Shown: in pieces, positions 28,300-54,111 of the stretch
How positions within the stretch are numbered: position 1 is the stretch's first letter
How the letters are laid out: the number at the start of each line of letters is the position of its first letter
Origin: Galaxea fascicularis
Lineage: Eukaryota; Cnidaria; Anthozoa; Scleractinia; Euphylliidae
Assembly (NCBI GenBank): GCA_948470475.1
Contig: OX419344.1
Coordinates: forward strand, 18,164,725-18,228,724
Length of the DNA stretch: 64,000 nucleotides
Direction of reading: 5' to 3'
Translations under genes and position numbers: made by a program
The notes under the pieces: model-generated
Told to the model about the DNA's origin: nothing
The model's input: the letters and a program-made list of their open reading frames with translations, nothing else
The model's database searches: none

Positions 28300-31030
28300 T
28301 CGAAGCTCACGGTTTTCCTCTAGCCTCGCTCTCGGAACAAATAATGTCCGCGGACAAATATCCGAGCTTCCTGGTACAGAGACTATTGTTTAAAACGCGA
28401 GTTTCTTATGTTATTCTGGAAATGAGCTTTGTGGATGATACACGACAAGGACGACAAAGACGAGGACGAAGAGGAAGAAAAAGGAAAAAAATAATAATAA
28501 AAGGGAAGGTAGCCCGTATAATAATTCGACGGAACAGATAAATGTTTTTTTATCAGCCACTGTGTTGTCAGCTGTTACAAGCGATCAAAGCCATTACCGG
28601 CTTTTCAGACAGTCGACCAAAGTTATGTACTATATCTTGAAATCACTTCGCACACACACGCAAGCAAGCTGAAAAGCTAGGAAGACGATGCGGAAGGTTA
28701 TAACAGGCTTATATAATTATAATTATTTTTTTTTCATACAAAGGAAAACAAAACAAAACAAAAAACAACATCTTTATGCAATTCTGATCTGCTCGCTCTT
28801 TCCTCTGAAAATCACTTCATGTGGTTGTCGCGCGTTGTAAAAGGTTATTTAATTTTTTTTTTTTTTTAGTGTCTCTGTCTGGAAAGCTTGAAAGCACGAA
28901 TATTAATTCAACTGACTTTCTTTCTTTTCAGTTTCCCTCGGGCAGAAAAAAAAATTATCTATATTATTAAAAGTTGTCCCACAACATTAACATAACCTGT
29001 GAGCGCGTCCAAGTCCTTGTATTATAACTGAATTTATGCCTTTAACTTCCGTGATAAATTTTATGCGGAACTGCTGGTGACTCTATCCAAGGGGTAAAAA
29101 AAAAAAATGAAAAACTTTAAAATGCGGTTTGTTTGATTATTGCCCTGCTGATTACCATATTTCCTTAGCCAATCAGACAGCGAAAAGGGTTGATTAAGGC
29201 TGTTTGAAATCGTGTTAACAAATTCAAATGTAGATGAATCATTATTTGTGGCATCTAAATTAGCTGTGAAAAAGCAAAGACTACAGGAGAGAGTTTCAAA
29301 ACATTTACAACAGCATTACCTGCGCTGGAAGGGCTGGACATCACTGCTCGCGGCAGTGGAGTGGTTAGCGTAATAGTAATACGGATTAATGTTATTAGAG
29401 AAGCACAGAGTCGAGCAGAGACAAGCTAATCTAAAATATAATGAAGTGTTGCAAATACAAAAAAGAACCGTTTTCGAAACTCGATTTATTGTTCACTTTC
29501 AGGTGAATATTGCCGGGAAGACGTTTTGCTCGTCCGAATGGAATCCTTTTCTTGTATATGGAAATTTGTGGTAGGTTTGACAAATATCTTAAAGCAATAT
29601 CTTGTTTATTTCAATTAACTAAGTAGGTCTTCGATCACAAACGGTGCTCTTCTCAAATTTTCACTGAACAGGTAGTGCTATGCGGACTTCAACCGCTTGC
29701 AGCTAAGACGAAATGCAGTTACCCTAAAGGTACGGCATTAACGGATGAATAAAATCGTTTAGTACATGATAATTTAACATTATCACTCTTTAGTGGTAAG
29801 TTGAGACGTCTGAGTCATAGATAAGAGCAGTTTGGTTGCTTCCGATATTTTCTGCTAAGATGAAGGATGGAAAAAATCTTTCACTTGTCAATTTAGAAAG
29901 ATTACGTGCAACCTTTTTTTTTTCCAGCTGAAATTTGGACCGACTTAGTTAAGCTTTCAGCTTGTCGCACATCTACATGATCTGTATCTTAGAATACTAA
30001 AGATTGGAGAGGAATGCAAAATGTTTGATGAAATTTTCTATCCCACGTGTTTATTGCCAATTTCTCATAACCGGTGATAACAAAGAGCGGTTTATTTTGT
30101 CAAAATATTGCGTCCAGCGCAGTTGGCAAGTTAAATTACGAATAATTATAACTTGAACCACACGAATGGCTTTACGCAACACCTGGTTTAGGAACACCTG
30201 ATTATAATTTAATGTCTCCGTCTTGTTTACGGTTTGTCCCATTGTCGTTGCACTAATAACATCGACTTTGAAGCTTTAGGACATGGAAATGAAACATGGT
30301 TAACCCACATAAAAAAATCAAACAAAACAAAAAATGAAAGCAAAAGCAAAAGAAACAAGGATGGATAATTTCTTAACCACAAGAAAGCTACGCATAATCT
30401 ATTACCTATTTTCGGTAGAAGGCAACAGAAAAGCCTTAGGGAGAGACAGTCTTTGCATGTGAGCTAATATTCTTAGTTTCCAGTTCCTCTCGCTGTCACC
30501 ACAATCATCTAAAATTAAAAGTAAACCAGTTTTGAATTAAGAGTACAGTCAGTATGCTGTGTGGGGCGGGCTTCACAAACTCTCTGATACTGCTTATCAG
30601 TCCCCCGCCTGGTAAACTTTTATTCATTCACTTCCGAAATCACAAGACGGTTATATTGCTCGCACCTTGAGACAAGTTCTTCTGCTTTGAATTCCTTTGT
30701 TTACAGGTTGGCTATTTCATTTTAATTTTAGAAATGGCCAAACTGAGTTGGTTTAGGTCAATGTCTTGTTAAACGCGCCTTCTAAACGTTGCTTAATAAA
30801 GATGTTTCCAATCTCAATAGAGCGCTGTTCAATTGAGTGTCGAAATTACTTTCCATCAATCGATGACTGGATGGCAAAATTCGAGTCCCTTTCTCAACCA
30901 ATGAGAAACAAAGTCAAGCCAATCGCGACTTGTACGCGCGCGTTTCAGCATTGGTAAAGATGTCCAGGATTTGTGAATGGGAATACAATATGAAATCATA
31001 TATTTGAACTGCGGATTAAATAATGAAGAT
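28300..31030. other. Unassigned stretch upstream of the receptor gene
   Basis: The 5' exons of the receptor at 31599-42452 should lie here or further left, but I could not identify them. A segment at 29503-29570 has a good acceptor and donor, yet its phase does not fit the next known exon. No other gene or element is recognised. Confidence 0.4.
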
Positions 31031-31127
31031 TTACGTGACCGTCGTAGTTATGAACACCACCTGAGCAGAGTGAAAATAAAGCCTGAAAAAATTCTGGCTT
31101 GTGCGAGAGCCTAACCCATGAACTTTG

Positions 31128-31275
31128 CGTTCAACAAACTGAGCGAAAAAAAACAGCTGGGAGCTCAGTTGGTAGAGGACTGCACCGACATCGCAGAGGT
31201 TTATGGGTTCGACTCTCGCACAAGCCTGGATTTTTTTTTTTTTTTTAGGTTTCGTTTTCACTGCTGGTCGAGTAG
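31128..31275 (+). mobile_element. SINE with degenerate tRNA-like head
   Basis: GGGAGCTCAGTTGGTAGAG, a GTTTATGGGTTCGACTC T arm, then CCTGG followed by a T run and AGGTTTCGTTTTCACT. An inverted piece of the same tail lies just left (31060-31110), making an inverted repeat. Confidence 0.55.
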
Positions 31276-31598
31276 TGTTCAAAACTGTGGTGACCCCGTA
31301 CGTGCAACTCCATGTCCAGTATTTGACCCACGAGATTCCGAGTATTTCATATTAAATTAAATTTGCATGTATTTGGGTGAGGATTAGGGCGTCAAAACGA
31401 ATCTAGTAATGGCATCGCTTCGTATTCTGATTAGTTTATTGTGTCGTTTTGAGTCTGTTATGATTGGTTAGAGTTAAGGCTTTAGTTTTAGTTTCACGAC
31501 GCTCAATTAAAAAGCGCTCCACCTCCTCTGGATAAATTGCCATTATCACAAATCTCATAAATAGTTTCATTTTGAATATAGAGATTCTTGGCGTCCAG

Positions 31599-34500
31599 GT
31601 AAACAAAACTCCCTCCAGTACGAGTTTCATTGATTCACTTGATATACCAGAAAATCAGAGGTCGGAGGCCTTTGTTAAGCGTTTGCGAACCCACTTCCTC
31701 GCACCAGAGAATGGAACCTACACATTTTACCTTGCTTGCGACGACAATTGCCAGTTCCTAATGAGTACAGACTGGAAGCAGGAGAATTTGAAGACTTTAA
31801 TATCTGTCGAGACGTTCACTCGTTACAGAGAGTGGACAAGGTATTTGAATGTTTTCACTTATTGTTTCTGTAGTGTGAATATATAAGCGCACAGTAGACT
31901 TGACAATCAGTCTGAACTAACGTCCTTGTCCAAACGCCCGTTTTCCAATTGTACGCTCAGTGACCTGCCCTATGAGTGGAAACGAGGGGGCGATTTCGTT
32001 TCACTGCTTTTCGCATGAAAATTATGATTTTCTTATGCATAGAATAGTCTACATTTACATGAGAAGGATAGAGGAGTTTGTATGAATGCCGGCGAGGTCA
32101 CCTCCAGCCTCACTTCTAGTCAAACGACAGATCACTCAACCGACAGCTTCGGCGGTGAAATGGGCTATTACGCGATGATCTAAACTTTGTATTTTCCGTA
32201 CACCTCCTTGAAGTCCCCGTTGAAGCCCTGAATTTTCTTTCAGGCTTTTTTACGCAATTGCGTAGTAGTAAATTGCGTTCACAACTTCTTGGAACATTCT
32301 TCATTTGATTTCATTTCCGCAGTTCATATGGTTAATTTATTTCATATACAGTCACCATTGTTTTTCTAACTGTGCATAATAATTAATTTTGTTACCCCAG
32401 CAGTGTACGAGAGATACCGTGTTAGGGATCAGGTCGTATATCGTGGTTGTCCTTAGTGCAGATGTTTGGCTGTGGAGCCACAGGGGTAGCGCCACTTTCA
32501 TGTTGCTTGCAACCCATTAACTAAGATGCTTAGCAGGACAACCGAAATCGGTCGCACCAGTTATTTTAAGACGCAGTCTGCCTCTACTGAATGCCTATTC
32601 CGAGACAACTTACCAATATATGTTATTTCTTTATTTCAAGACCCTGCCGATCTACAGCTAGCAGGTAGTCGAGATTATAAATGCGGCTTAAAATGAAAAT
32701 TTCCAGTTAGGTCACTTACAGCAAAGTCTGTACATGCTGTGAAAAATTACTTAGAATTAGTCTTCTGAAATTGTAGATACTTTTCTCTAACAGTTTCCAT
32801 GTAAACTTTGAAAGATTTAAAAACACACTGCTTAAAAATGTTAAATTGAGGTAAGTTTGCTATACTTCTATGAGGGTGGTGATTGGAATTTTGAATGCAA
32901 GTACTTTGCAGGGTAATAAAAGGAAAAAAGAATTATCAAATAAACGATGTTTAATATTCTATCTGTGTCTTTGTCTAGAGAGAAACCTATAGAAGTGAAC
33001 CTGTCCGCTGATCACTTCTACCTTATCGAGTCCACTTGGCAGCAAAATAAAGGACGTTATCACTTTTCTGTTGGAGTAAAGTTCCCAACCGCGAATCACA
33101 CTCTGCCTGTTATAATTAGCAAAGAATTTCTGGCCAAGTACACACCGCCTGGTACGAACGGTAATATTACTGTTAAAATAATAGTGTTAGGGAGTAGCAA
33201 AAGGTCGTCCACCATGTCAGTCTGAGAGGGAAACGGGTCTTAGTGACAATAACTGTAGTTTCGACAGCCGGGCGAAAGTCATCATCAGAGTGAAGTGGTT
33301 CTGCTGACGACTTCAGATCAGGCAGCCGAAACGTCAGTCACTGACGACGGCCCTTTCATGGACCCTCATGCTTTGCCAAGCTGATACGACGTCTGCTGAA
33401 TTCAATTCATTGACAAATAGTAACGCTTTTGTTGATATGGCACTTGTAATCAGTCCTTAAGGCCCCTGTTAACTGAATTAATCGTCATGAATAAAGCACT
33501 TTGCGTTGTACACATAGCCTTAAAGCCGGTTACTAAGAGTGCGTTTTTGGGGCTCTTCCAGAATGGGAATGATTAGAATGATGGGAATTTGACACAATAA
33601 AAAAAACTGACTACTATTCTGAAAGCGGAATGAAACCTCACCGCGTTAGACCGGAGAGGGATTACTTGCTCATCCTGTTCATTCAACACCACGCAGTAGA
33701 ATAACAGGAATGGGTTCCAAGGACTCCGGAATTAGACGATAAATAGACAATAAAAAAACGCGCCAAAAATACTTTCCAACTATTCTCATTCAGGAATGTC
33801 TTCCAAAATAACGCGCCCTAAGACTTGATAGGAGAACCTATTCAAAACAAATGTGTCTTCTTGAATGCAGGTTGAACGTTGACACATTCTCTTACTGTAT
33901 TCGTCAATTTAACTTTCAGTTCAACACAACAGTATTAAAGTTCGCAACACTAGTTCAACGTCCCTCTTAGTCAAGTGGAAATTTGAATGCCCAGTCCGCT
34001 GGCCGGATGAACAATTAACAATCTTTTACAAGGCGGTTGGTGAAACAGCCCACAATATAACTGTAAATGCCAGTCTTCAAGCTTATGAAATGAGAGGTCT
34101 TACAGCTTATACAAAGTATTGTGTTAGAGTTCAACTGGCGACCATTGCAGGAATAGGGCAGCAATCACAGTGTGTCTTTGCAATGACAGATCAAGATGGT
34201 GGGTATATATAAAACCGAGAATCTATAGGAATTAGATCACATACTCCTTGCACGTTATTCGTGGGCCTTGACGAAAGCCCTCAACGTCACATATCTCTTT
34301 AGAGTCCAAATTGAAAAGTTTAATCAAACCTAAGAAAAAAATTACATAAAGAGGTCTAAAACATCCGACTAAAAGAGTAATCCTGTAACTCGTCCAGACC
34401 TCTATTTTCATTGGTCCCTAGTGACCTGTAATTTCTTTTGTTATAAGGGCTAGAGTGTCATCTATCGTTTCGTTTTCCAATCACAGACCGCGTCTGGAGA

Positions 34501-37500
34501 GGTACGCGGTCTTTCAACAAAAATGCATCAGCTAAATTCTTGAAACGAGGACGTTTACAAAAGTGCGGTTCGATATGATACTGCGAAGTCAAACAAAAGG
34601 GTGGCCAGATGGCCGCCATCTTTGCACTAATGCAAATTGAGAATTACCAAGAACGGGATTTGATTGCTCGACTGGCTCTCTCTCTCTCTCTTTTTTTTCT
34701 TTTTGTAAGCATGATTTTTTTTAACCTTATGCTATTTGGGGTGTCATTTTCTAACCACATAAACAGATTTAAACCTTTTATTTGCCTTAATTAATTAAGG
34801 TGGGGTTTCTATTTTAGGCCATGTCTACTACTGTTAACGCCTTTTGTCGGCAATTTACAGCTCCCTTTTGTTCTCCTACGAGGATCTCAGCACGGAACAA
34901 CTCTAGCCCTACTAAAATCCGTGTATCGTGGCAGGCATTCCCCAATTCCTGTTGGCAGGGGATTTCAAGAGGCTACTCTATGCTTCTTCAAGTTAACAAA
35001 ACTGCCCACAAGGAAAACAAGACTTGGAGTCGACAATTTTTCCTAGGACCCAGTACAACAGGGTTTCTGATAGAAGGCCTTCAGACATACACGACCTACA
35101 GCCTTCAGGTGGCTGCACGGACCGATACAGGCCCTGGACCTTACAGTGAAGCTTTATATGTAGGTGAGCGTAAAATGTTTAGTTGATTAAAAGAGAACAT
35201 CGTGCTTGTTACGTAAACCATTTGCTGATCATTCATTCCCATCATGACCAAGCATGGGAAGAAATTTCCATGGGGCTTATGCAAACCATTCCATTTATTT
35301 GAATTTTTTCCCTTTTTTGACCCAATTATTCAATATTCATGCACAGTCAATTCAAACGTCTTCCAAAAAACATTTTTACTGTGCAACCGGTTCCTTACAC
35401 GAGTTTGGCATTAGTTTTATTGCCTATAAGAGCAACAAGAAATTGATAGTCATTTAAGATCATCATCGACATCATAATTATCACCAAAGTAATCAAAATG
35501 CAATTATTTTTAAGCTAACCTAACCTATTACCTGCCTTGATTCCTTTAGACACATGCCGATGTCCTAAGAAGTTTATTGTTAACTGGGTACAAGCTTCAC
35601 CCCTGAGTTTCACCGAGAATGATGTAAAAGGGACAAGACCCGCGGGAATATTGCCCAAACTGCTGCATGATATGATACATCACACCTGTGGTGTATGCCA
35701 TGGTCATAAAAGGACAATGATTATCTTTAGAGAGGAGAAGCTCGCCATTCGTAAACTGGCTAATTCATCGAGCGATCACAACCAATTGAATTTACCAATT
35801 AGTATGGAGCGTCATGTACCGTTTGATAGGGAAGAGTATGTGTTTCTTCCCGTACTTGAGGTAGCTGGGATTGCCGTACTCATGCGAAAGCCCAGCTCAG
35901 GAGTGTACGCACTCTACCTAGGATCTGCTGTAATGCATCGCTGGCCTGTTGTTCTTATGATGTTTGCGTTGCATTGCGTGTTTGGTTTGGCAATGTGGAG
36001 CGTGGTAAGTACTTAATCTCTGGTCAAATTGTAGTTTATATCCTGTAAAACGACGCTTAACTTTTGCAAAAAGCAGCATATTATTCCCTGGCTCTTATCA
36101 GAGTGTTCATTGTAAGTCTATTAAATACAACTAAAAGAGCATCAACTGCCAGCTTTATCCGATTGAATATTGGAAATTAATTGAGAAGTAGCCCTTCCTA
36201 AAGAGATCACGATGTTGTATGTTATAGTTAAGTTGCGACGATAGCTCACAAAGTTTTTTTTCGGACGACTAAAATACTTCATGGCTGATATTATGATCTA
36301 CGCCCTACAGTTAGGCAAGCCAAACTGCTGAGCACTAAAATGAACAGTTGCAAAAAAGGCACCTACTGAACATTTAAATCCTCGCCGTGTTGCGGAAAAA
36401 ATTATAAGTACAATAAACCAAAGAAGCAAGCAGAATCAAACAAGAAAGATAACAATGACACAAGCAAAGAGAACAACGAACAAAGAAGCAACGCTAAAAA
36501 AACTTATCTTTTTTCAACAAGTTTAGTATCGGTTAACTTAGTAGTGTTGCATAGGTCGTTGCTTACAACTGGTTCTTGTTTTGCAGGAGAAGTATAAGAA
36601 CCCATCTCAGTTTTCGCCGCTATTTACAAAAGGCTGGTCGCAGGGTATTTGGTGTGCTATTATCACTATGACAACCGTTGGGTAAATAAATTAAATACAT
36701 CATTACTTATAAGACGTCATATAGTGTGGGCTTGTTTGGGACACCGATATCGCGAACCCATAAAAAGTATTGTAATTTTAATTTGAGAGAAATGTTTTCG
36801 CTATTGTTTCGTTTTTGTTTTGTTGTTGTTTTTTTTTCATTGTAAACTTCAATTGTTACAGTTCAACATGGTTGCCACAGGCCAGGAAATGGTCAGGAAA
36901 AAAATTCTTCAAGGTCAGGGGAAAGTCAGGGAATTTCACTCCGAGTCAGGGAAAAATTAAGTCTCTGAGGGAAGTCAGGGAAAAGTGAAATTTTAAGGGT
37001 AATAATTTATTTATTGTCGATGTTTTTGTGTGAACAAGAATTCGAGCTGTCAACTGATGTTGACAGCTCGCATTCTGTAAGGGGAGGTTGGAAGCCATTA
37101 GCAGGCCTAATTTGAATGGTTTCTTTTGTTTATTTTGTTGGTCAGGGAAATTTTACATTTGTCAGGGAAAAGTCAGGGAATTTCAAAATCCTGTGGCTGT
37201 GGCAACCAAGTAAACAAATACAAAAAACTTGATCGTGCAAAAAAAAAAAAAACAATGTTTTCCCGTGTTTTCTAGCACGGCAAACGCAATTACAGGAAAA
37301 CAGATGTTTGCCAGGCGTTCACCGATCATTAAACACTTGGAAATCAGCAAATATTCTGATGTTCTCTTGCGTTTTCTTGGATTTTTTTTAGGACGGAACG
37401 CTCAGAAAACGTGAAATATCTTGGTATTCTTGCTTTTTCTGGGACGACGAACTCCTGCTAATTGAAGAAAATCACGTTTTCCAACGTTTAATGAATCTTG

Positions 37501-39153
37501 CTGGCGTTTTCGAACGCTTACTGATCGGTTACAACTCGAAAAATGGCTTGTATTCTGGTCTTGGGCGATCATTTTGCTCTAAAGTTTATAAATAATTCGA
37601 ACAATGTTTGTCCTAACCCACCACTAATTCTTCGGGAAATATTAGCGCACACCTGCACATAGCTTTTAGCTTTGGCTAGCTGTCCCTGCTTTGGAAGCTT
37701 ATTATTTTCTCTCCCGGAAAGCACGGCAATGATACTTTAGTCGAAATGTTTTGGGTCGTATGTGAATTTAAAACCCTAACGTGCAAATTCTAGTGCAGGT
37801 GGGACCCTCAAATTTTGTGCATTCAAGGTTTTCTCAAGTTATTTTACATCGGGTTCCCATACAAAAGTACTGTCATTTCTGACTCGCTTGCCTACCCGAA
37901 CAAGATGGCGTTAAAAACCGTCTTATGGTAATGGGGAATTGTGCCAACTTATTCGCATACTAAATTGAAGGATGGCGCATGCCTTGAAAGTCTTGGGAAG
38001 GAGGAAAGGGGGAAGTAGCTTTTGCAACCTATTGTATGTGAAAGTTCTGGAGACCCTGATAAAGATATCCACTCACTCAGGTATGGTGATCGTTATCCAG
38101 TGTCAGTACCCGGAAAACTGCTGGTTGTGGTCTCTCTGCTGGTGGGCGTGGTCATGGATACACTATTTATAGCATCAATGACAGCATCCCTTACTGTGTT
38201 TGTTATGGACGAGGCAGCCAACCCCGAGCGAGGAAGGACGGTTAGTAAGACCTGAAAGAATCAATATAAAAATATGATTTCACAAATTCGTTGCTTTAGT
38301 TATAATTGAAGGTTATTCCTCGAGCGATCGTTTGATATGAGATCGTAAATAGCTATTTCCTATTTCAACAATCGCAAATAGGACAATCAATCTTATTTGT
38401 GGGATTTTAAACATATTAGCATTATCAGCGTTTTAGCATCTTTGTATCAGTTTCCTTTTTTACTCTTTTTGTTCGTTTACTCCTTTTCACAGGGTCCACA
38501 CTGATGTCGGTTTAATAACTGAACCGTTACGCCATATAAATATTTCAATTATTATTATTATTCTTATCATTATCATTATTAATCATCAGCATCATCAACC
38601 CCATCATCATCATTATCATCATCATAAATTTAAAACAAGCAAGAAACAGTACTGACTTTGTTCAACCATTTTGCAAGAAACAACAGAGGACGGTTACACG
38701 TAACAACTGATGTTACATAGCAGCTGACCCAATCAAAACCCTGGAGTTTGGTTACGCAAAGGCACTTGTTAAATAAAGCGAGATCATTCACTGATTTGGC
38801 GCTTATTATACATTCACGTAAAAAAAATAATTGCGATTTTGAAGAGTGTAAGTCTGGGTACGTAGGGTCTGATTGGTGGAGCAACAAAAAGGTATGAACG
38901 TAGACGCTGAACGAAATCTGGCCAAGATTGTGAAAACAAAAACATTAAAATTGTTCTCCATATTTGTTCTCGTTACTGATCTCGTTTAAGACTGATTCAC
39001 ACTTGCGAAATAACGACATAATGGGGAAGATCACGCAAACGAAAAAAGTACCTCAGTCGTGTTGATGTTTCATGTCTCTAGTGTGAACAACACATCATAA
39101 TGACATAGTAGGAGGATAAAACTGATCTTTTCTTTACGTGATTATGACTATGT

Positions 39154-39187
<34 letters not shown>

Positions 39188-42100
39188 CTTAGTCGTTTAT
39201 TTTCTAATACACTAACGTCTCTTTATTGGGCTCAGATTGGAGTCGTCAGCGGTTCTGTGGAACAACCTGTTGCCATGCGCATGAATGGAAGCAAAGGGGT
39301 GACGTGTAAGTTGTATGAAACGACGCAATTGTAGATTAGATTACATTGATAAATGTATGTGTTCCCCGGTCCTGTGCACAGGAGCTTGTTGTATACGTTT
39401 ACTTTAAATACCATCAGCTATATTTTGCTTGGAAATAGCGTTAATAGAGTTTTTTTCGGAAATATAAGCAGGAATAAAGTTTAATGTGTTTAAATGTATA
39501 ACTTGGGGCTTCTGGCCCGGCAAAACTATGATCTACCGTTATACGAGAATTTGGTTTAATAGATAACTAAATCAGATAACTAAATGTAAGTTGGCAACCT
39601 TAAACCTGGCGTTGCGAGCGTTAACCATCTGTCAGAGCGAATTCAAATGCTCCACAACACTAAACCTGCATATTGAAATTTAAGGTGACTTTTGCGAATA
39701 TCTGGTATCTGACATTTGTTGTATCTCATCAATGTGGCTTTTATTTGTTCAGCAGGATTTTATTTATAAGACTGATCATGCCAATGAGTTAGTTTGCATG
39801 CAGTATTTCCAAATTATTGTCTCAGAAATGCTTCCTTTAACTTAAATAAAGAGTCTTCAACATTTCGTTTAACTATTTCACGATCGTGACACGAGCACCC
39901 GTGCAATCCCTGAATTGGAATGCCAACAAAAATCATAAGTCAATCAGCGATCTTGGGCTCATTTTTTGAGACGTTTCAAGAAAGGGGCATTCGAAATAGA
40001 CCGTAGTCAGAATTAAAAACTACCGTCTATCCAAAGCGTTCTTTTTTCGGAATAGTAACAAAAAGGCACCCGATATAAACTCCCAGATTCTGAAACACTG
40101 CAACTTAACGAAATAATTCATTTTTTTTTGTCCAGGCATCCCCTACCCGACAAGAGAGGCTGTACTGCAGGGGCTGAAATCTGGGGCTTTAGATGGCGTG
40201 ATAATGGACGTCTTAACAATGGACTCTTTCGTAAAGGACTTGAGTGATTCCAACTTTGAAGTAGCTAAAATCATACCCAAAAAGTTTCACTATGGAATTA
40301 TTCTTAGTGGAGACCTTAGATACCTCATTAAAGACTTTCGGGAATACGTGAAGTCAATACGAATTGAAAGCTTCTCAAAGCAGCTTAAACATGATATACA
40401 AGATATGAAGGTGAGTCTTTTAATCACCGTTACTCTTCAAGAATGCTGTTTTGTTCATCTGCCCTATCCAGAACTATTAGTCATTACCTGAACCCCTGAC
40501 ATTAGGCCGGGCGCCGACAAACGCTCGCTAAACATCAAACATTATTGAACCACCATTCTGGGTGCATTTGAACACCATGTTGGGTATTGCATGGGGAATT
40601 GTTGGTATTATAGTAGATGTGGGATCATATTTAGTAGAGGGGACTAACTGTTGTTCCATGTTGTTGACCGAGGCTTCAAATATTGGAGACAGCAAATCCC
40701 AACATTTCTAGTTGTGATCGTTGACGAGAAGAAAAGTATTGAACGCGATTCAAAATCGTGAAACGTCTTTTTTCTAATGCTACAATCAGTTCAGCTACAA
40801 TCAGGAACTGAACTGGAGAACGGAGAGCAAGTGTTTCACGCAAATATTTGTTTTCGATAAGAGTCTATTTTTTTCCTCATTGTAGATGTCTGTCCGGGAG
40901 TCATTGCATCGCCAGAGTATGTCCAACGGTGTTGGAACCGTTTGAACAATTTCACAAACACTGTCTCATAACTGCTATCAATGTTGCCCAAAGCTGATCA
41001 TTTACGTCGGCTTCAGTTTTCCAGTTGAGGCTTAACGCGTAGACAAATCATAAGCGTGTTTTTCATAACTTTATGATTTTGGTGGTATGCAATAACGTTA
41101 CCTGTGATAACGCACAATTGTCTAGTTTCCAAACGTTCCTACGAAAGCTTCTGTGACAACTGGCAGCACGAATTTAAATTTGGAATATGGGATTGTTGCA
41201 GCGGTAGCAATAGAGAATGACTTACTTTCTTTTCGCTGTGTTGTTTGTTTGTAGGAAAGCCCACGAGACACCAAACCGACCGTGTCTTCCGAGGTAGAAG
41301 TAATTCCATTCTTTGATCCAAGAAATGTACTTTACCAGCGTACTGTCAAAGTCACGGGGATCGCTCTCGTTGGATCTGTGGTTATTGGCTTGCTGTATCA
41401 TATGAGCCGAGAGCGTTTCAAAGGCAAACAAGGCAAGAAGACGGATTCCGTTTGTGTCTCCTCATTGCTTTTACCAGAATGACAACTGTGTTTTAATTTT
41501 CACCGACCATTAGAAAACTGGTTTTTCCGGGTTAAGAAAAGCAGAGGAAAGTATCAAATAAATGTGAATGTATGGAATGGCATATATTTGAACTGCGGAT
41601 TAATTAAACAATGAAGATGGCTGATCATCACAGTGAGAGATGGTCACTTTTTTTATTTCCACCACTGCTCACTGATAAGCTGCGATCTCACTGACATATT
41701 TATTCTTTAATCCGCAGTTCAAATACTGATATGATTTTCATACATTCGCACTCATTTATTCATCACACACGGGTTATTTCGACCAGTTTCCAGTTGACTT
41801 GTTAGCTCAACCGGTAGAGCACACGCGACCTGAATTACCCAATTTGCCTGTTAATCGTCTGCACCAATTTTATCTAAAGTCTGCAATTTTAAATTCAACA
41901 AAACACAGGTAGAATGTACCCAGAAGCGTGTTTGAAAGCAATTATGAATTTTAACGTAAAATAATCATTTCTCTGTCGCGGGCATGGCGACATATTTTTT
42001 GAAGGATATTTCACCGATGTTAATGAATAAGTAGTGAATTGTAAAGAGAATTGCCATTAATTAAGTTTTCTGTTAAGGAAATTTAATTGCTTTGAAGGTG

Positions 42101-42452
42101 GTTCGAGGAGTCAGTATTAGTCATTATTTTTGATTTTAATGTTATTTCACTGTGACTGATTGCCCTTCTAAGGCAATAACAAATCCGCTATTCTCCAGTC
42201 CACAACGAACTCATGGTCATTTTCTTTCTTTACGCAGGTAAACCAAGAGACGCAAGGCCAAACGTAGCTGCCATTAAAGCGGAGATGAAGCAACTCGTAG
42301 ACGAATTTCATAACAGAATGCAGCGAAGATGTTGTGCTCTTAGGATCAAACATAGAAAAGAACTCCTACAATTGAGAGAGAAGCCAAGTGGTGCTGTAGT
42401 TAAACTCAAATCGTATAGACGAATAGGTTCTATCATAGCGGAAAGCGTATAA
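31599..42452 (+). CDS. PA14-FnIII ionotropic glutamate receptor-like channel with K+-type filter (5' incomplete)
   Basis: Eleven exons join without a frame break: 31599-31840, 32979-33160, 33920-34198, 34861-35163, 35550-36004, 36587-36681, 38081-38240, 39236-39305, 40136-40410, 41255-41432, 42238-42452 (stop TAA); 817 residues. Order: PA14-like domain of the fibrocystin type (1-141), two fibronectin III domains (about 142-335), ligand-binding lobe S1 (about 336-460), TM1 (about 467-487), pore with GIWCAIITMTTVG then YGD (filter T517-D522), TM3 ending IASMTASLTVF, S2 (about 573-687), TM4 (720-737), basic cytoplasmic tail. Candidate ligand residues: Arg in PISMER, Ser in VVSGSVE, Asp in VIMDVLTMD. 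Known parallels for the filter are bacterial GluR0 and rotifer AvGluR1. Potassium selectivity and glutamate binding are inference. All introns are GT-AG except the last, GC-AG. The signal peptide and start lie upstream and were not found. Confidence 0.85.
33258..33288 (-). ncRNA. Hammerhead-like core, minus strand
   Basis: Minus strand reads CTGATGA, TGACTTTCGCCCGGCTGTC, GAAAC: both conserved boxes with a GAC/GTC stem II. It lies in the receptor's second mapped intron, 16 bases from a second core on the other strand. Probably a Penelope-like element remnant. Confidence 0.5.
33304..33332 (+). ncRNA. Hammerhead-like core, plus strand
   Basis: CTGACGA, CTTCAGATCAGGCAGCC, GAAAC, then GTCAGTC. 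The two catalytic boxes are present and in order, but stem II does not pair well, so activity is doubtful. Confidence 0.4.
36870..37207. mobile_element. MITE with GGTTGCCACAG ends, GTCAGGG repeats
   Basis: GGTTGCCACAGGCC at 36870 is inverted as TGGCTGTGGCAACC at 37194-37207. At least eight copies of GTCAGGGAA fill both ends. It lies in the intron that splits the selectivity filter codon of the receptor. Confidence 0.65.
38570..38630 (+). repeat. ATT/CAT microsatellite
   Basis: Runs of ATTATT followed by CATCAT in a receptor intron. Confidence 0.8.
38986..39191. mobile_element. MITE with TAAG...TTCACACTTGCG ends
   Basis: TAAGACTGATTCACACTTGC at about 38987 is inverted at 39160-39191 (GTCGCAAGTGTGAACCAGGC, CTTA). 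GTCGTTATGTC words are repeated inside. In the intron before receptor exon 39236-39305. Confidence 0.65.
41433..41438 (+). other. GC splice donor or alternative retained-intron end of receptor
   Basis: Exon 41255-41432 ends GGCAAACAAG and the intron opens GCAAGA. Joining here to 42238 keeps the frame (G|GT). If the site is not used, the frame runs on for about 17 codons to a TGA at 41480-41482, giving a short alternative tail that ends shortly after TM4. Confidence 0.65.
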
Positions 42453-43890: not shown

Positions 43891-44065
43891 CAGTTCACGA
43901 TAAGAAAAGCTTTGCAAGTGAAGAGTGCTCATCGCAGTAAATTTTCCAATTTAAGCAACTGGAAAGAAGAAGCCTGAAAAAGTCAGGGCTTCAACGGGAC
44001 TCGAACCCGTGACCTCCGCGATACCGGTGTGATGCTCTACCAACTGAGCTATGAAGCCACACATT
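43890..44065 (-). mobile_element. tRNA-derived SINE
   Basis: Minus strand: tRNA-like head (44059-43988) GGCTTCATAGCTCAGTTGGT...GGGTTCGAGTCCC, then CAGGGCTTCAAC inverse, CTGACTTTTTCAGGCTTC and a TTTCCAGTTGCTTAAATTGG tail. The tail and a piece of the head are repeated in direct orientation at 44161-44240, so a second broken copy lies beside it. Confidence 0.75.
43988..44059 (-). tRNA. tRNA-like SINE head
   Basis: GGCTTCA/TGAAGCC acceptor, GCTC/GAGC D arm, ACGGG TTCGAGT CCCGT T arm, apparent anticodon GGT but with C instead of T at position 33. A SINE tail follows, so probably not a decoding tRNA. Confidence 0.6.
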
Positions 44066-44198: not shown

Positions 44199-46501
44199 TT
44201 AAGCAACTGGAAAGAAGTGTGGCTTCATAGCTCAGTTTGCTGGGAAACCAACCAATTTTATCTAGCTGGCTGGGAAATATCTTGTGTGTCTTGCTGGCAA
44301 AAAGGAACAGATATTTTTTTTCCCAGCAATATTAAAAAACACCTGAAAATGCCTGAATAACATTTAGTTTTATTAACTGGGGTATAATAATACATTTTTC
44401 AGCAAATTGGTCGTTTTGTGCCCCTGTCCACATCCAAATTGAGGCTTTTTTTCTTGATGCGGTAAATCACAGCGGGCCCAGACGTTGTTTGTGATTTACA
44501 TACGTGACAGTATTGCGTTACGTTTTGAGCCATTTAAGAGAATGTATGAAAATGGTTCGAAAATCGCTCTAAATTCAACTTGTAGTAAAGGATTTCAATA
44601 AAAGAAGCTTACCTCAGTCTGCGCTTGTGTTATTTTGAAGTCTTTGTGGTAGCTGTGTCGTTCTAAAGCCATTTTGACGATTTAAACTTTTCCAGGTTTG
44701 CTTTGCAGTAAAGAGAAACGAAAGGCTAGCGACCTGGTCGGCCGACGGCGAAGCTCCATAAATTCCACTAAAATGCTCGGAGCTCGCCAAAATTGCCTCA
44801 CGACAGCCGTCGATAATTCTTCTTCGTAGTTGCTTCGCCTCGGATTCCAAGGTTTATCTTATCCGCCCGAAAAACACTCCTTTTCGAGCGCCGGCTGCCC
44901 ATTTCTGCTTCGTCTCGATCCGTAACGAGTTATCTTGGCCACGGATTTCATTTCAAAATCGTTGGCTTAGCGACCGCTCCATCCCGACAAAGTCGCCCTC
45001 AACCGTAGGGAGGCACAGGTCAATTTGCTCTATGCAAATTAAACCGTATCATGATCCCTGGAGAAATTACACAGGAAAAGGCGGGAAACTCACACAAACA
45101 TTCCGCTTACTCATTACTTAGTGGGGGGAAGGGCCTACTTACAGCTGATAGAGCGCTTGTAACGATGGGTTCTTATAGGTCCTCATAGCCTAGAAGTGCA
45201 TTTTCTTCCGATTGACGTAATACTTTGGTCAACTGGAAACGATGGGGTAGGGCGTACTGAAAGACTATTGAACATAAAATCTCCGGAATCAAAATTGTTC
45301 GGAACAGGTCGCAAGGACATCTGCAAATGGTTAGACTTTCTAGTATTCTCGGATAAGGACAATAAATCGTAGGTCCCCTCTCATAATTGATTCTGTGGGA
45401 CGTAAAAGAACCCCTGTTCGAAAAGAGTAGTAGTTCCCGGTGTGGTGGTCTATCTGTGACGTGAGTCTTTCCCTTGCGCGACAAGATTGAACAAAAGACT
45501 ATACAAAACCCTTCCCGCAAACCCGCAACACACCAAAAGACTAAGTAATGTTACAAATTTAATAAATTTAAAATACATAGAAGATTATTAAACGCAGAAC
45601 TAACAACTCCTAACTTATAATTTAGATATAAAACTAAGCTAACTTAAAAGATAACACTAAATTAATTAATTACTTAACTCTTATATTTACAATTGGACAG
45701 TTTAGTCCAGTTCTTTGATAGTCCAGTAATTCCTTGTCCTTGATACTCTTCCAAAACAAACAAACCGAAAACAACCTACAACCATCAACCTTCTCACAAT
45801 CTTTCTTCACCTTTGGCGCCCTCCTTCTTTACCTTGCTCTATCTCTTAGCTTTCATCTTTCTTCTTCGTACTTGCTTTTTCCAACACCTTCGCGCTCGCC
45901 GCCGCCGACAAAGGGGTTTTGTCTGTGGGACACAGCTGGCTCCTACCAATGGCTCTTGGCAGTGGTATCTTGAGCGTCGTGGCCTTCGACCTTTCAGTTC
46001 GCAAACTTTCCTTCTTCTTGCTTCTCTCCCACTTTCTTTCCTTCCAACTGACAACTGACTGACTGACCACCTTCACCACGAAACTTACATTTTATACAGA
46101 TGCATACTATTAGCAATTAACACTTTACATACATACGCGGTACCTTACAATCGTATGTTATTTTACACTCTTACGTCCTAAACACGATAACTTTACACTC
46201 CTATGATAACGCTTTACAAAATTTACAAGATATTAATTACAGACTAAGTTACAATACATCTCTAATTACAAACCACACTACAACGCTGAATTAACACTAG
46301 ATAATTAACGCTAGGACGATATGAAATACTGAAACCGAAAAACTAACAAAAAGCTAAATAAAAACATGACAAAAAAGACAAAAACAATGACGAAAAATGT
46401 AAATATTAGAAATTCCGTGACACTATCTCATCCGATGATTAAATACTCGGAGATATATCTGCATAAGCTACTCTAAAATCCGAGGCTAAATAAAGTAATG
46501 T

Positions 46502-46786: not shown

Positions 46787-47118
46787 GGACCTATAAGAAC
46801 CCATCGTTACAAGCGCTCTATCAGCTGTAAGTAGGCCCTTCCCCCCACTAAGTAATGAGTAAGCGGAATGTTTGTGTGAGTTTCCCGCCTTTTCCTGTGT
46901 AATTTCTCCAGGGATCATGATACGGTTTAATTTGCATAGAGCAAATTGACCTGTGCCTCCCTACGGTTGAGGGCGACTTTGTCGGGATGGAGCGGTCGCT
47001 AAGCCAACGATTTTGAAATGAAATCCGTGGCCAAGATAACTCGTTACGGATCGAGACGAAGCAGAAATGGGCAGCCGGCGCTCGAAAAGGAGTGTTTTTC
47101 GGGCGGATAAGATAAACC

Positions 47119-47328
47119 TTGGAATCCGAGGCGAAGCAACTACGAAGAAGAATTATCGACGGCTGCCGTGAGGCAATTTTGGCGAGCTCCGAGCATTTTA
47201 GTGGAATTTATGGAGCTTCGCCGTCGGCCGACCAGGTCGCTAGCCTTTCGTTTCTCTTTACTGCAAAGCAAACCTGGAAAAGTTTAAATCGTCAAAATGG
47301 CTTTAGAATGACTCAGCTACCACAATGA
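47119..47328 (+). CDS. Unrecognised 70-residue frame, duplicated in both foldback arms
   Basis: Starts MESEAKQLRRRIIDGCREAI and is repeated on the minus strand at 44614-44850 with a few changes at the C-terminus. It is present twice only because it lies in the inverted arms. Function unknown; it could be an N-terminal exon of the element's protein. Confidence 0.3.
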   Translation: MESEAKQLRRRIIDGCREAILASSEHFSGIYGASPSADQVASLSFLFTAKQTWKSLNRQNGFRMTQLPQ

Positions 47329-49004: not shown

Positions 49005-49040
49005 GCGTGCATTCTTTAGAAATACATCGATTGCAACCAA

Positions 49041-50774
49041 ATGCTTAAGATGAACAAACGAGGCAAGGATGTCAACTGGTCAATGTTAGCAAATGCATCG
49101 CCTAAACCAAAGAGACTTCACTTAGAAGAGGATGACTGTGATGGTCTTTTTCACTGCCCAGTGCAAATTTGTAAGCACGATGGATTCACTACACAAAGAG
49201 GCTGTAGAAAACACGTAAAGAGCAAGCACTCTTGGTACTATTATTTTGACGAGAAGCCAGACAGCGTTCAAATCGAATCGTTTGATGGTCAAGCGCACAA
49301 TAATACAGCCACTGATCAGAAGACTGCGCGCAAAATGAGGACAGTTGCGACTTTTGACAAGACGAGCGACATTGCTAAGAATTTCTTGTCGTGGCTCACA
49401 GGAAGTGGCGGAGGCTGTAAAAGTGATCGACAAGCACAACAAATCGTCAACAGGTGCTTAAAGTTTCTTAAATTTTGTTGCGAAGACGAAGAGGAGCTCA
49501 CATTTGACATTGTCGACTTTAGTTTATGTTCGCCTAATCTCCTATTTAAATTCGTTGATACGATGCAAGATGATTGGGAACTAGGACACGCAGGGCGCAT
49601 TGGCTACTTAGACGCCATTGCAGAATTGGCGGATTTCAGAAAAGTGAATGGTGCATCCGATGTTGTATTGAGGGGCTTGTCTTCTACGGAAACATATCTG
49701 AAAAAGGCCCGTAAAACAGTTTCGAAAATGATGCGGTTGCAATGGATCAATGAACTCGACATCGACACCCTAGAATCCAAGGGACATTGGGCCACGCTAG
49801 AAGAGCTTTTGGAAGTTGTTGCGCGTTACTTGCCTCGCTACGAGAACGTACTTAAAACATGCAAGGATAAACCAGCTACAGTATCACCACTGGAGTTGTC
49901 CTTTGCCACAAAGTTTCTTGCGGTGTATTTGTTTATCAAGGTCAAAGGTTCCCGCCCGATGACCTATCAGTTTTTGACCGTTGATATGGTGCGCACAGCA
50001 AAGACCAACGGGGGATTTATCGATCAGAAAATGTTCAAGACGGCAGGAAAGTATGGCTTTGATTCTTTCTTCCTCACCGACACAAGCATGCAGGTGTTGG
50101 ATGGTTACATCGACCACATTCGCCCTCACTTGAAACCGACTTGTGATTACGTTTTAGTCACGAGGAATGGCGGCCAGCACAACAAACTTGGCGAGCTGAT
50201 GAGCAAGTTAGTGTTTGACGCGATCGGGAAATACGTTCACCCGACTCGTTACCGACAAATAGTGGAGACAGTCAGCTCCAAGAAACTTAGTAGCAACGCG
50301 CAAGGCACGATCTCCGAGGACCAGAAGCATAGCTCAGTTGTGGCAAGAGTGCATTACCAAAAGCAAAGATCGCGAGAAATCGCGACCAAGGCCCACGAAT
50401 ACCTGGAAACCCTTTATGGCGAAAAGGGATCGGCGCTAGAAATGGATGTTCGATCACGACTTTCAGACAAATCAGCGTCTTCGCCAGAACAAGAGGACAA
50501 TGACGATGGGTCGGTCCCCGAACAACACACTGACATTCACATTACGCCCACTAATTCCAAAAGCAAGAATGTTTCGAAAACACCCGATTCTTTTACGGGA
50601 AGGAAAATTCTGCTATTTACTCCAGAAGAGGATCAATATTTGAGGATGGGACTTGAACGTCATGGTTTCGGAAATTGGACAGCTATTCTTAGAGATCCAG
50701 ACTTTCATTTTCAAAAAGGGCGAAAACCAAACTCTCTCTTAAATCGCGCAGCCAGAAAGTTCAAAAAGTACTAA
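49041..50774 (+). CDS. Zinc finger / tyrosine recombinase / SANT protein
   Basis: An intact 577-residue frame. A C2H2-type finger is at 39-63 (C39, C44, H58, H63). A core-binding helical region follows (about 105-260), then a tyrosine recombinase catalytic domain with all landmarks: R305 in KGSRPMTYQF, a lysine around 330-337, H400-x-x-R403 in HPTRYRQIVET, H430 in KHSSVVARVHY and the nucleophile Y439. An acidic linker (480-500) leads to a Myb/SANT-like module (about 526-577, FTPEEDQYLRMGLERHGFGN). Such enzymes cut and rejoin DNA through a 3'-phosphotyrosine bond without needing TIRs, as in Cryptons. The start at 49041 follows a TATA box; ATG at 49050 is an alternative. No frame damage, so it may be recent or domesticated. 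Confidence 0.88.
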   Translation: MLKMNKRGKDVNWSMLANASPKPKRLHLEEDDCDGLFHCPVQICKHDGFTTQRGCRKHVKSKHSWYYYFDEKPDSVQIESFDGQAHNNTATDQKTARKMRTVATFDKTSDIAKNFLSWLTGSGGGCKSDRQAQQIVNRCLKFLKFCCEDEEELTFDIVDFSLCSPNLLFKFVDTMQDDWELGHAGRIGYLDAIAELADFRKVNGASDVVLRGLSSTETYLKKARKTVSKMMRLQWINELDIDTLESKGHWATLEELLEVVARYLPRYENVLKTCKDKPATVSPLELSFATKFLAVYLFIKVKGSRPMTYQFLTVDMVRTAKTNGGFIDQKMFKTAGKYGFDSFFLTDTSMQVLDGYIDHIRPHLKPTCDYVLVTRNGGQHNKLGELMSKLVFDAIGKYVHPTRYRQIVETVSSKKLSSNAQGTISEDQKHSSVVARVHYQKQRSREIATKAHEYLETLYGEKGSALEMDVRSRLSDKSASSPEQEDNDDGSVPEQHTDIHITPTNSKSKNVSKTPDSFTGRKILLFTPEEDQYLRMGLERHGFGNWTAILRDPDFHFQKGRKPNSLLNRAARKFKKY

Positions 50775-51054: not shown

Positions 51055-54000
51055 TCATTGTTGGCTAGGTTTGAAAAAGTTCGTTATCCTTCCCTTCTTG
51101 GGTACTGGAGTGCTTGTTTGGGATGGCCGTTTTCTAGATTTTCCTCTCTGAAAGACGTTCCTACTTGTGCTTTTCTGTGTTGGTGTCTGGGAAGAAGAAG
51201 GAGTGATGAAAATATCTTGATCGTCGCATTCGCATTCTTCTCCATTGAATGGGTATGGCATGGGTTCCCATACGCTCGTAATACGTTCGGCCTGTTCCCT
51301 GGATAACCACTTCATATCCAATGCTCTTTTCTTTCTTTCCATGATAACAAGTCTGGAGAGGCCAGGTAACTCATCTCGTTTGAAGTTCAACTTGAGGGCT
51401 TCCACAGTAACTCCAATCATGTAATGCACAGCGCGTTTGACATCGCCATCCCTTGCAGTTTCCTCTTGTTCTTGTAGCTGTCGCAATTCTTTTTCCTTTG
51501 CCCACACCCACTCGTTCTCATAGTAATTGGACGCTTTATCCTGCAAATTCTTCTGCTCTTCTTCTTTCTTTTTCGCGAAGTACTCTTGCCGTGAACGTTC
51601 AATTCTCGGATGGTATGGGCCTTCAACCGTCTCCAGCAAGTGAGCATCTTCCTCTCGAATCATTCCAAGAGATATCCAATGTTGTCTTGTCTCGGCAAGA
51701 ATCCGCGCCTTAGCCCGTTGTGCTTCAGTTTCTCTCTCCTTCGTGGCACGCTTCACTCCAGCTGCAATGAGCCCCAGTTGCCTTTGTCTCAGGCTGTTGC
51801 ATGGCTGCTGCTCTCAAAGCTCAGATATTTTTTCAAGCGTACTCTCCCATCCGTCAGAAAACGTTGATTCGGCATCCGAATTTACTTGGTTGACTTCTCC
51901 TGCAGATAGGTCGTCGTCAGTTTCTACCACGAGTTGCCCTTCTTCAACACTTGCTTCTTGTTCGCTTTCACTGTCTTCCAGGTTCATCGTTGCGATTCTA
52001 TTCCTTTCCTCGTCATCAAATTCATTTGGCTTTGCAGCTGATCCAGGAATTGGAGGGGGAAGCTCATCATCTGGAGTGCGCGCCACTCTGCTTGCCCACA
52101 CGATACAATCCATTGCACTGTCACGCAATGACTGCTGTACTCCTGGAATTGGTCGAGAGTTCAGACTTTTAAAATAGAACTTGCGTAGACGTGCATCCAT
52201 GGCCGCGTTGTGCTCTTCCCCAAAATCCATTTCTGTTTGGCAGGTGATGAACATGGGACATCGAATTTCCTGTTGGCTAGAGCTTCTGTATTTCCGATCG
52301 TGAGCGGTAAGTCCCCCCTGCGTCAAAACTTTCCAGTCATCGGGATCTAAAAGCTTGACGTGTGCTTCATCCATGAAGATGACTTGGGTCCTTTGGTCAA
52401 CGAGACTCTTGTTAAAGGCTTTCTGTTTGGTTATCATGGCGATGTACCTGTGAAGGGAGACATAAACAATTAATTGTACAAAATCGAGTGAACATTCGAC
52501 CTTTGCATGTGCTTTATTTTGGATCAGGGCCCCTCTCAACGGTTGAAAAACACTTCCGAGGTTGCGTTGATATTTTCTACCTGATGAAGCAGTCAAAAAC
52601 AAGAACAAAACAGCAAATACCTAGCAGGAATTATCCGAGTGATCGGCGTGAATAGGCTTGTTTTCCCGCTGTTTGGCTCCCCAATTAAGCACATGACTTT
52701 CTCTTTGTGTTGTTTAATTCCGTGATTTAGAAGACGCAAGTAGTATTCGCAGAAGTGTGTCACACCAGTCGGACTTAAGCTGTTCTCTAGAATTTCTTGA
52801 AAGTACTTGGACTCTGGCTCTTTAGTGTGGGAGTACTGTTCAAATGCTCGCGGACATTCTTTTCCAATTTCTTTAATGGGGTTTTGGACAAATCTTCTTT
52901 GACTTAGCGAGAAACACCAACCATTCAAAACTTCAATTAAGTCGTAGTTGATTCTTAACTGTTTCGTAAATTCGCTCTCGGGGTCGGCCAGTATAGATTC
53001 TAGCTTGTTGAAATTTGTGATGATAATCTCCTTCAATTGATCGTTGTTTGCCAGGACTGACAGGAACTTTTTGATGGAGCAAGCGTGTTCGAAGGTATAC
53101 ATTGAAGCTTCGTTTTTCTTGAAAACGTCGCCTTTGTGTAACGCGTAGCCCAGTTTTGCCATGGCTCTCTCAATTTTGTTTAGTGCAACAATGACGGGAG
53201 ACTTGGACAAGGCCCTTCCAATAGACTGCTGACTTTCCGACTCTTTCACATTTTCTATTCCAAAGACGTCAAATACCAGACCAGCTCTAGTAAGTGCCGG
53301 GATTGCCCTGTTTTGCAATTCCGATGAAAAAACGGGACTTTGAACTTGCAGGCGGACGACACGTTCGCTGCCGTGAATTGATGGAACAGGCTCTTTCAAT
53401 ATCTGCGATTCAAGCGCCTCTAAACAATGCTGAAACGACACATCAACATTTCTTTGCAAGAAGCTGTTATTATGGTCTTTCACTGTTGTGCACAAGGGAG
53501 CGACTGCAATTTCTTCCTTTCCTCTCGAACATTCTTGTACAGATTTAGCTGTGACTTCCATGCCTGTTTCCAGAACCGCTGAGTGAACTGGAATAGTTGA
53601 CATTCTAAGGCCATCTCTGGATTGCAGAGCTATCCAATACGATATTGCAGGCCAATAGACCTTTTTCTTCCTTTGAGAATTACTATTCGGCGTTTCTTCG
53701 TCACCATCTTTGTCTTCTTCACATTCGTTTTCCTGAACTTTCTTCTCCACAACTGCAACTGAAGAAAAGAAAAATGCCATCTCCTTGATTTTCTTCATGG
53801 CTTTGTCGCACGCGTCTCGTTTCGCACATATTTCTAACCATAGCTTGTCTGGGTCTCTTGTCTCTTGCGATGTGTTGTAGGTCACTTTAGCTGAGATCAC
53901 TGAACATTTTTCCTGAACGATTGGTAACACTTTGCTTACAAGAGCACTTCGAATATTCTGCAGGAGAGTCAAACAGAAAAATAGCAACGTTAGCACTCCT

Positions 54001-54111
54001 ACTTGAATTCGATACAAGACTTAACTCTTCACCCTTTGACTAAACACAACTTAAGATAAAGCACAGGATACATACCTTACTGTTGAGCTGCCGAGCAGGA
54101 GCACTTGCCAT
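51055..54111 (-). CDS. Superfamily 3 helicase with C-terminal coiled coil and PIP-box, one in-frame TGA
   Basis: Minus strand. Exon 1 54111-54076 (12 residues, MASAPARQLNSK), exon 2 53957-52621, exon 3 52447-51055; both introns are GT-AG and in phase. Walker A GEPNSGKTS is at about 438-446, Walker B QVIFMDEAH at about 479-487 (40 residues apart, as in SF3), then CPMFITCQTEMDF (motif C, Gln instead of the usual Asn) and MDARLRKFYF with the arginine finger. These helicases are typical of small DNA virus and plasmid replication proteins. A TGA at 51816-51814 interrupts the frame; in the same frame beyond it come a charged coiled coil (about 670-850) and the end GRITNFFKP, a good PCNA-interacting motif. 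Full frame would be about 921 residues. No HUH nuclease domain was recognised in the N-terminal half. Confidence 0.82.
51814..51816 (-). other. In-frame TGA inside the helicase gene
   Basis: The codons around it read ATA TCT GAG CTT TGA GAG CAG CAG. The frame is open on both sides, and 252 codons follow. CGA to TGA (a methylated CpG change) is the simplest origin, but a stop with readthrough is possible. Confidence 0.8.

Follow-up and report, generated by a model that had tools for sequence, protein, structure and literature searches.

The question raised by a locus of the stony coral Galaxea fascicularis is which kind of channel is encoded by a gene that combines the layout of an ionotropic glutamate receptor (iGluR) with the selectivity filter of a potassium channel. 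The window, i.e., the whole stretch of 64,000 nucleotides analysed here, corresponds to C10:18164725-18228724 of an assembly that totals 416.6 Mb over 170 contigs. As judged from sequence, the product of the gene is probably one subunit of a ligand-gated potassium channel of iGluR layout, the ligand of which may not be glutamate. The predicted protein features a leader, an outer region made of a PA14-like and two fibronectin type III (FnIII; Pfam fn3) domains, ligand lobe S1, transmembrane helix TM1, a pore loop, TM3, ligand lobe S2, TM4 and a short cytoplasmic tail. Its channel part is kin to bacterial GluR0-type receptors; the kinship is seen for the pore and for S2 each taken alone, and for S1 only within the whole.

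The gene comprises 13 exons (Table 1) that span positions 29538-42452 of the + strand and encode 853 residues in a splice-consistent model. A first-pass annotation had joined eleven exons into 817 residues. This assembly is exact, with matched phases and a terminal stop, and the eleven exons are real, but the extent of the gene had to be revised: the first of the eleven starts at 31582 (acceptor atag/AGATTC), and two added 5' exons supply the start codon and a hydrophobic leader. Both exons and the corrected acceptor were added because coral relatives open with a leader followed by a CxYP-like stretch. Exons 1 and 2 are supported by splice signals and the start codon, exon 2 also by a weak tblastn match, and strong tblastn matches stand behind the remaining eleven. 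For instance, the coral proteins P0001-P0004 matched all eleven exons; P0005, which lacks fn3, matched nine, and P0006, which lacks the PA14 part and is cut inside S2, matched seven. No stops interrupt the 13-exon frame. All introns but one are of the GT-AG type; the exception, the last, has GC-AG boundaries (exon end 41432; donor CAAG/GCAAGA) and, if left unspliced, would stop the protein 16 codons later. Given the phases, the splice sites and the conservation of the exons across species, a chance join of exons is very unlikely, and this explanation was discarded.

Hydropathy profiles revealed four hydrophobic segments, corresponding to the leader, TM1 (residues 505-523), TM3 (568-586) and TM4 (753-771) of the 853-residue model. 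The filter (553-558) lies between TM1 and TM3, as in the S1, TM1, pore, TM3, S2, TM4 topology initially proposed, and one hydrophobic helix, TM1, lies between the ectodomain and the pore. In the 817-residue model, fn3 (two stretches, 1.9e-16), Ion_trans_2 (1e-10) and Ion_trans (3e-7) exceed the Pfam cut-off. GLEYA (7.8e-5, 23.4 versus 26.2 bits) and PA14 (0.049, 13.9 versus 24 bits) stay under it in the window protein, and PA14 exceeds it in the relative P0004 (28.2 versus 24 bits). An ectodomain of PA14-like and FnIII modules is retained, even if the domains expected at the outset were recovered in part: fn3 and Ion_trans_2 passed in the window protein, PA14 and Lig_chan did not. Pfam found no LIVBP amino-terminal domain in the window protein, returning fn3 and weak PA14/GLEYA matches instead.

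A first protein search retrieved seven proteins. Six of them (P0001-P0006, 44-50% identical) belong to the same family, and the seventh (P0007) is a Rhodocytophaga bacterial protein, the match of which is limited to the PA14-like part. The named relatives come from the stony corals Acropora palmata, Desmophyllum pertusum, Oculina patagonica, Pocillopora verrucosa and Stylophora pistillata. When the channel part served as query, P0008 and the GluR0-like P0009 were retrieved as well, besides plain potassium channels. P0001 (906 residues) and P0005 (774 residues) are encoded by contigs of 3,250 and 2,646 bases, which contain little beyond coding sequence and are most simply transcripts, or intronless copies. 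Since both contigs are too short for introns and join ectodomain to channel, the two parts belong to one protein, which counters the assignment of PA14/FnIII and channel exons to different genes. P0001-P0004 feature the order PA14-like, TSP1, fn3, fn3, channel (P0003 begins inside the PA14-like part). In P0006, the sequence of which stops inside S2, a pentraxin/LamG domain replaces PA14 (Pfam E 5.8e-32). All six proteins carry a TSP1 domain, which follows the first ectodomain part and precedes fn3 or the channel. A six-frame scan of the whole window for one TSP1 motif gave no match, and the absence of the TSP1 exon is accordingly ascribed to loss from this copy, not to an oversight. The exons flanking the TSP1 site leave and enter in phase 1, and the loss thus preserves the frame.

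Searching the Galaxea genome with the channel part yielded 46 rows among the best-scored candidates. By place and query range, these rows include 6 for the window gene, 22 other S1-exon matches, 2 S2 matches, 4 unassigned pore pieces and 12 Kv-like rows, five of which were read. The 22 further S1-exon loci, which are 21-31% identical to the window sequence, map to six contigs, on two of which, C8 and C13, they are clustered. The set may include recent duplicates, assembly copies or dead copies, given that two loci are short (query positions 2-113 and 1-62), one contains stops and a pair on C8 share identical frames. Three loci were fetched with their flanks (C13:10.75 Mb, part of which reads N, C3:38.02 Mb and C8:7.29 Mb). 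In all three, the pore exon ends in TVG or TLG and the next exon begins with YGD; the same phase-2 intron interrupts the filter in these copies and in the window gene. An S2 exon with the Asp discussed below is present in the three copies and a recognisable tail in two, and tblastn detected upstream fn3-like stretches, five in the C8 copy and four in the C3 copy. The channel of the C8 copy in turn retrieved Stylophora P0015 (61% identical) and Oculina P0016, which stops before the pore. Their public names are Receptor-type tyrosine-protein phosphatase F and PTPRQ-like, respectively. Like receptor-type tyrosine phosphatases, the family features rows of fn3 domains; P0015 differs from them in having a potassium pore (five fn3 stretches and Ion_trans_2 in Pfam), and neither P0015 nor the window protein has a phosphatase domain as judged by Pfam. 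The window gene thus belongs to a large multigene coral family, and the notion of a single odd gene is not borne out, given the 22 further loci and the coral relatives. Ectodomains are shuffled across this family and include PA14/GLEYA-like, TSP1 and pentraxin/LamG modules and from zero to at least five fn3 domains.

The potassium-type filter noted in the first-pass annotation was confirmed. The window pore reads TVG/YGDRYP, with an intron inside the filter, and G-Y-G is found in 12/12 members with a readable pore (nine aligned rows, P0006, and the C3 and C13 copies; P0016 falls outside this count). Deviations are limited to GYGH for GYGD in one relative and TAGYG in another. Pores were compared pairwise with 81 bacterial GluR0-type rows, i.e., P0009 and 80 loci (L050-L129), the best 80 of at least 417 candidate stretches in a bacterial scan; record titles name several phyla. 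The set is anchored by L062, the PDB matches of which include GluR0 (Slr1257), a second bacterial iGluR homologue (chain 2pyy) and receptors of the AMPA, NMDA and plant types. The median score of the window pore is 156 against these rows, 94 against 9 Kv rows, 23 against 5 bacterial rows lacking a potassium filter and 22 against 3 iGluRs of the same genome. Corresponding medians against GluR0-type and Kv rows are 167 and 134 for P0004, and 174 and 92 for the C8 copy. Median and best scores of all three family pores favour GluR0-type rows and, along with a match that extends into S2, point to GluR0-type receptors as candidate nearest kin of the pore, whereas the pore-only tree described below points to Kv channels.

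This extended match covers 313 columns from S1 through S2 (E 1.7e-37, much of the score coming from the pore) when a nine-row channel profile is compared with a bacterial profile built from loci longer than 320 residues. S2 alone matches GluR0-type sequences at E 7.5e-7 (best of 20 column shuffles, 0.029). With single sequences as templates, P0009 reached E 4.4e-17 over 141 columns and L001, an iGluR of the same genome, 6e-4. In the PDB, a seven-row S1S2 profile retrieved histidine-, lysine/arginine/ornithine- and other amino-acid-binding periplasmic proteins via S2 (best E 0.0087); the weakest rows, a bacterial toxin at E ~0.8 to 1.3, were taken as chance matches. Across the nine aligned channel rows, S1 and S2 positions are retained throughout. 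We take one aligned Asp to be the holder of the amino group of the ligand, and an aligned Arg to be the holder of its alpha-carboxylate. These roles are stated for iGluRs in PMC12226733. The Asp is found in 9/9 family rows and in 80/81 bacterial GluR0-type rows.

Several results weigh against the interpretation of the gene as a ligand-gated channel of GluR0 kinship. Lig_chan stays below the Pfam cut-off (2.6e-4, 21.3 versus 30.8 bits). The match of S1 alone to GluR0-type sequences falls within shuffles with nine rows (E 0.19; best of 20, 0.063) and is modest with 23 rows (E 0.0021 versus 0.0079 for the best of 40 shuffles). The S1S2 profile listed 30 PDB sequences at E up to 10, none of which is a glutamate receptor. 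The carboxylate Arg is missing at the aligned column in 9/9 family rows, whereas it is in place in 79/81 bacterial GluR0-type rows, in 5/5 rows of a second bacterial group and in 3/3 iGluRs; in four of the nine family rows, the window included, an Arg lies one column past the usual place. Finally, in a pore-only tree (54 rows), a starred branch (98/88) unites the family with Kv rows, seven of its nine sequences fall with Kv (96/80), and the family does not form one clade. Sequence likeness suggests a bilobed ligand-binding fold, weakly so for S1. The invariant Asp makes the binding of a ligand with an amino group plausible; with no Arg at the usual column, glutamate is not specifically supported, nor is a glutamate-gated receptor as such.

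Three known systems bear on these points. Bacterial GluR0-type receptors (Slr1257 of Synechocystis and homologues), described as 'Group 1' in PMC2950845, share the S1-TM1-P-TM3-S2 order with the coral family, as well as a Glu before the pore and the GYG filter (both 9/9 and 81/81), a Leu at the end of TM3 (9/9 and 74/81) and the amino-group Asp. In contrast to the coral proteins, they have two transmembrane helices; the window protein has a third, TM4, in addition to a cytoplasmic tail, introns and, across the family, PA14/TSP1/fn3/pentraxin ectodomains, and it lacks the carboxylate Arg at its place. In 2010, these bacterial receptors were called, as then known, the sole union of a glutamate site and a potassium filter (PMC2950845). 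AvGluR1 of the rotifer Adineta vaga has a eukaryotic architecture with a potassium filter (PMC12332018) and has been likened to bacterial iGluRs (PMC12226733); the rotifer is the only animal with a potassium-type iGluR pore in the accounts given by these two papers. AvGluR1 shares the animal iGluR layout and filter with the coral family, and differs from it in being functionally tested, with known ligands, and in that its descriptions there feature no such ectodomain. The comparison with GluR0 and AvGluR1 drawn in the first-pass annotation is supported, for AvGluR1 at the level of published descriptions. Canonical animal iGluRs (AKDF, NMDA, Epsilon) resemble the family in the order of parts, in TM4 and in the amino-group Asp, as seen in L001, the sole readable row. 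In contrast, the window protein lacks LIVBP, has a potassium filter in place of the Q/R/N site, and features IASMTASLTVF in the TM3 region along with TVGYG, not SYTANLAAF; the similarity of the pores is low, as measured with three rows of the same genome. As a separate observation, a dense run of canonical Lig_chan exon matches at C3:21.38-21.55 Mb is probably a tandem iGluR cluster.

The GluR0 likeness might reflect the transfer of a bacterial GluR0-type gene into a coral ancestor, with TM4, introns and animal ectodomains gained later. This scenario, which is conceivable but unlikely, would account for pore scores that are higher against the 81 bacterial rows than against Kv channels or iGluRs of the same genome, and for a tree with ligand lobes (45 rows, 358 columns; 28 of the 81 bacterial rows used) in which the family forms one clade (100/100) outside both bacteria and the three own-genome iGluRs. 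However, a constraint uniting the family with animal iGluRs was not rejected (p-AU 0.46), the pore-only tree sides with Kv channels and TM4 is a eukaryote trait; furthermore, branches are long, and the animal rows are those of corals apart from a few Kv rows, AvGluR1 being left out. Bacterial transfer and ancient retention both stand. The coral channel had no match in plasmids, nor did a first genome scan with P0009 give one. Searching plasmids with P0009 retrieved 20 records (H1-H20) of iGluR-like receptors, for which the annotation is in most cases that of a transporter substrate-binding protein; the potassium filter is absent in the five that were read (L045-L049), which were kept as 'Group 2' rows.

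In a second scenario, the protein is an adhesion- or matrix-tethered potassium channel, either always open or under the control of force or of the ectodomain, in which S1 and S2 no longer bind a small ligand. The absence of the Arg at its usual column in 9/9 family rows and the variety of ectodomains would fit such a protein, which is nonetheless improbable given the invariance of the Asp, the conservation of S1 and S2 positions in the aligned rows, and the weak similarity of S2 to amino-acid-binding proteins.

Kv channels share the TTVGYGD filter and the Ion_trans_2 and Ion_trans matches with the family, and adjoin it in the pore-only tree. A Kv-like pore of the animal itself could have been inserted between ligand lobes, the GluR0 likeness being partly convergent. 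When the channel part was compared with the PDB, the best 60 of 295 sequences were all named potassium channels except bacterial Lmo2059, and none was named a glutamate receptor; in P0004, moreover, the Kv median is near the GluR0-type one. We consider this origin distinctly improbable, and Kv channels were not adopted as closest kin, because the tree is short (111 columns) with long branches, pairwise scores of three family pores are lower against Kv than against GluR0-type rows, and the match to the latter continues past the pore into S2. In addition, the family differs from Kv channels in that the pore lies between ligand lobes, and, as hydropathy gives only TM1, TM3 and TM4 besides the leader, there is no four-helix voltage sensor. 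It is similarly doubtful that the filter is a relic or cosmetic, in a channel that is non-selective or non-conducting: the two filter deviations point that way, but G-Y-G is kept in all 12 members across diverged subfamilies. An artefactual gene model or a pseudogene uniting unrelated exons, which the missing TSP1 exon and the GC-AG intron might suggest, is highly improbable given an open frame, phases that match through 13 exons, the same order of parts on the two short contigs of relatives and a phase 1-1 exon loss that preserves the frame.

The preferred reading, a ligand-gated potassium channel, suggests how the receptor may work. Four subunits would assemble, and a small ligand with an amino group would close the S1/S2 lobes; lobe closure would pull TM3 and open the inverted potassium pore. 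Potassium would exit and the cell would be quietened, an inhibitory role, while the outer domains may serve to anchor the receptor in matrix or on glycans, or to modulate it. Such a mechanism is physically possible, as the GluA1 ligand domain fused to a viral potassium pore yields a glutamate-gated potassium channel (PMC6385376). AvGluR1 is a precedent for the pore; none was found in the open literature for the ectodomain or for the family. No report of a coral family of iGluR-like proteins with a potassium filter was found among open papers, and potassium and GluR0 are absent from the accessible main text of an eLife survey of metazoan glutamate receptors to which Acropora and Stylophora had been added (PMC6307864).

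Tentatively, stony corals might possess a large, domain-shuffled family of inhibitory ligand-gated potassium receptors, represented in this genome by the window gene and 22 further S1-exon loci. In these receptors, a GluR0-type channel, possibly bacterial in origin, would be joined to lectin-like, TSP1 and fn3 ectodomains. If so, matrix, microbial or diffusible amine/amino-acid cues would be converted directly into hyperpolarisation by a class of fast inhibitory receptors separate from Cys-loop receptors and canonical iGluRs, partly masked by phosphatase names. Animal iGluRs are commonly regarded as excitatory cation channels. The coral family would represent a testable inhibitory receptor class in an animal whose nervous system is simple and a living comparison for the departure of iGluR pores from the potassium filter, and would supply candidates for the sensing of matrix, glycans or microbes. 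The public phosphatase names of at least two family genes are corrected as well.

Table 1. Exons of the candidate receptor gene, with positions in the window and supporting evidence.
Feature	Position	Strand	Evidence
Exon 1: start codon and first part of leader (MESFSCIWKFV)	29538..29570	+	Splice-consistent model; no tblastn match; P0001 start similar (MEC..)
Exon 2: rest of leader and KTKCSYPK	29672..29729	+	Model; weak tblastn match (E 0.31)
Exon 3: PA14/GLEYA-like domain, first part	31582..31840	+	Pfam, tblastn, model
Exon 4: PA14/GLEYA-like domain, second part	32979..33160	+	Pfam, tblastn, model
Exon 5: FnIII domain 1	33920..34198	+	Pfam, tblastn, model
Exon 6: FnIII domain 2	34861..35163	+	Pfam, tblastn, model
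Exon 7: ligand lobe S1 and TM1	35550..36004	+	tblastn, model, hydropathy; S1 homology alone weak
Exon 8: pore helix to TVG	36587..36681	+	Pfam, tblastn, model
Exon 9: YGDRYP, TM3 with end IASMTASLTVFV	38081..38240	+	Pfam, tblastn, model
Exon 10: start of S2 (IGVVSGSVEQ)	39236..39305	+	tblastn, model, S1S2 profile
Exon 11: S2 with invariant Asp (MDVLT)	40136..40410	+	tblastn, model, S1S2 profile, residue alignment
Exon 12: TM4; GC-AG donor	41255..41432	+	Exon joining, tblastn, hydropathy
Exon 13: cytoplasmic tail and stop; charged stretch also in relatives	42238..42452	+	tblastn, model

Elsewhere in the window, identical open frames of 119 codons at 44762-45118 (+) and 46851-47207 (-), about 2 kb apart, form an inverted repeat that could represent a mobile element or an assembly fold-back. 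An open frame of 584 codons at 49020-50771 (+), which may belong to a mobile element, has a terminal Myb-like DNA-binding match just above the Pfam cut-off. Three adjacent open frames of 252, 268 and 475 codons occupy 51058-54020 (-); Pfam gave no match for the 252- and 475-codon frames, the latter of which contains a P-loop-like stretch (GEPNSGKT). tRNA-like genes, possibly tRNA-derived repeats, map to 15596-15669 (+, Arg) and 43986-44058 (-, Thr). An exon at 8857-9225 (+) matches the V/A-type ATP synthase C-terminal domain (E 7.6e-17) and marks a neighbouring gene.

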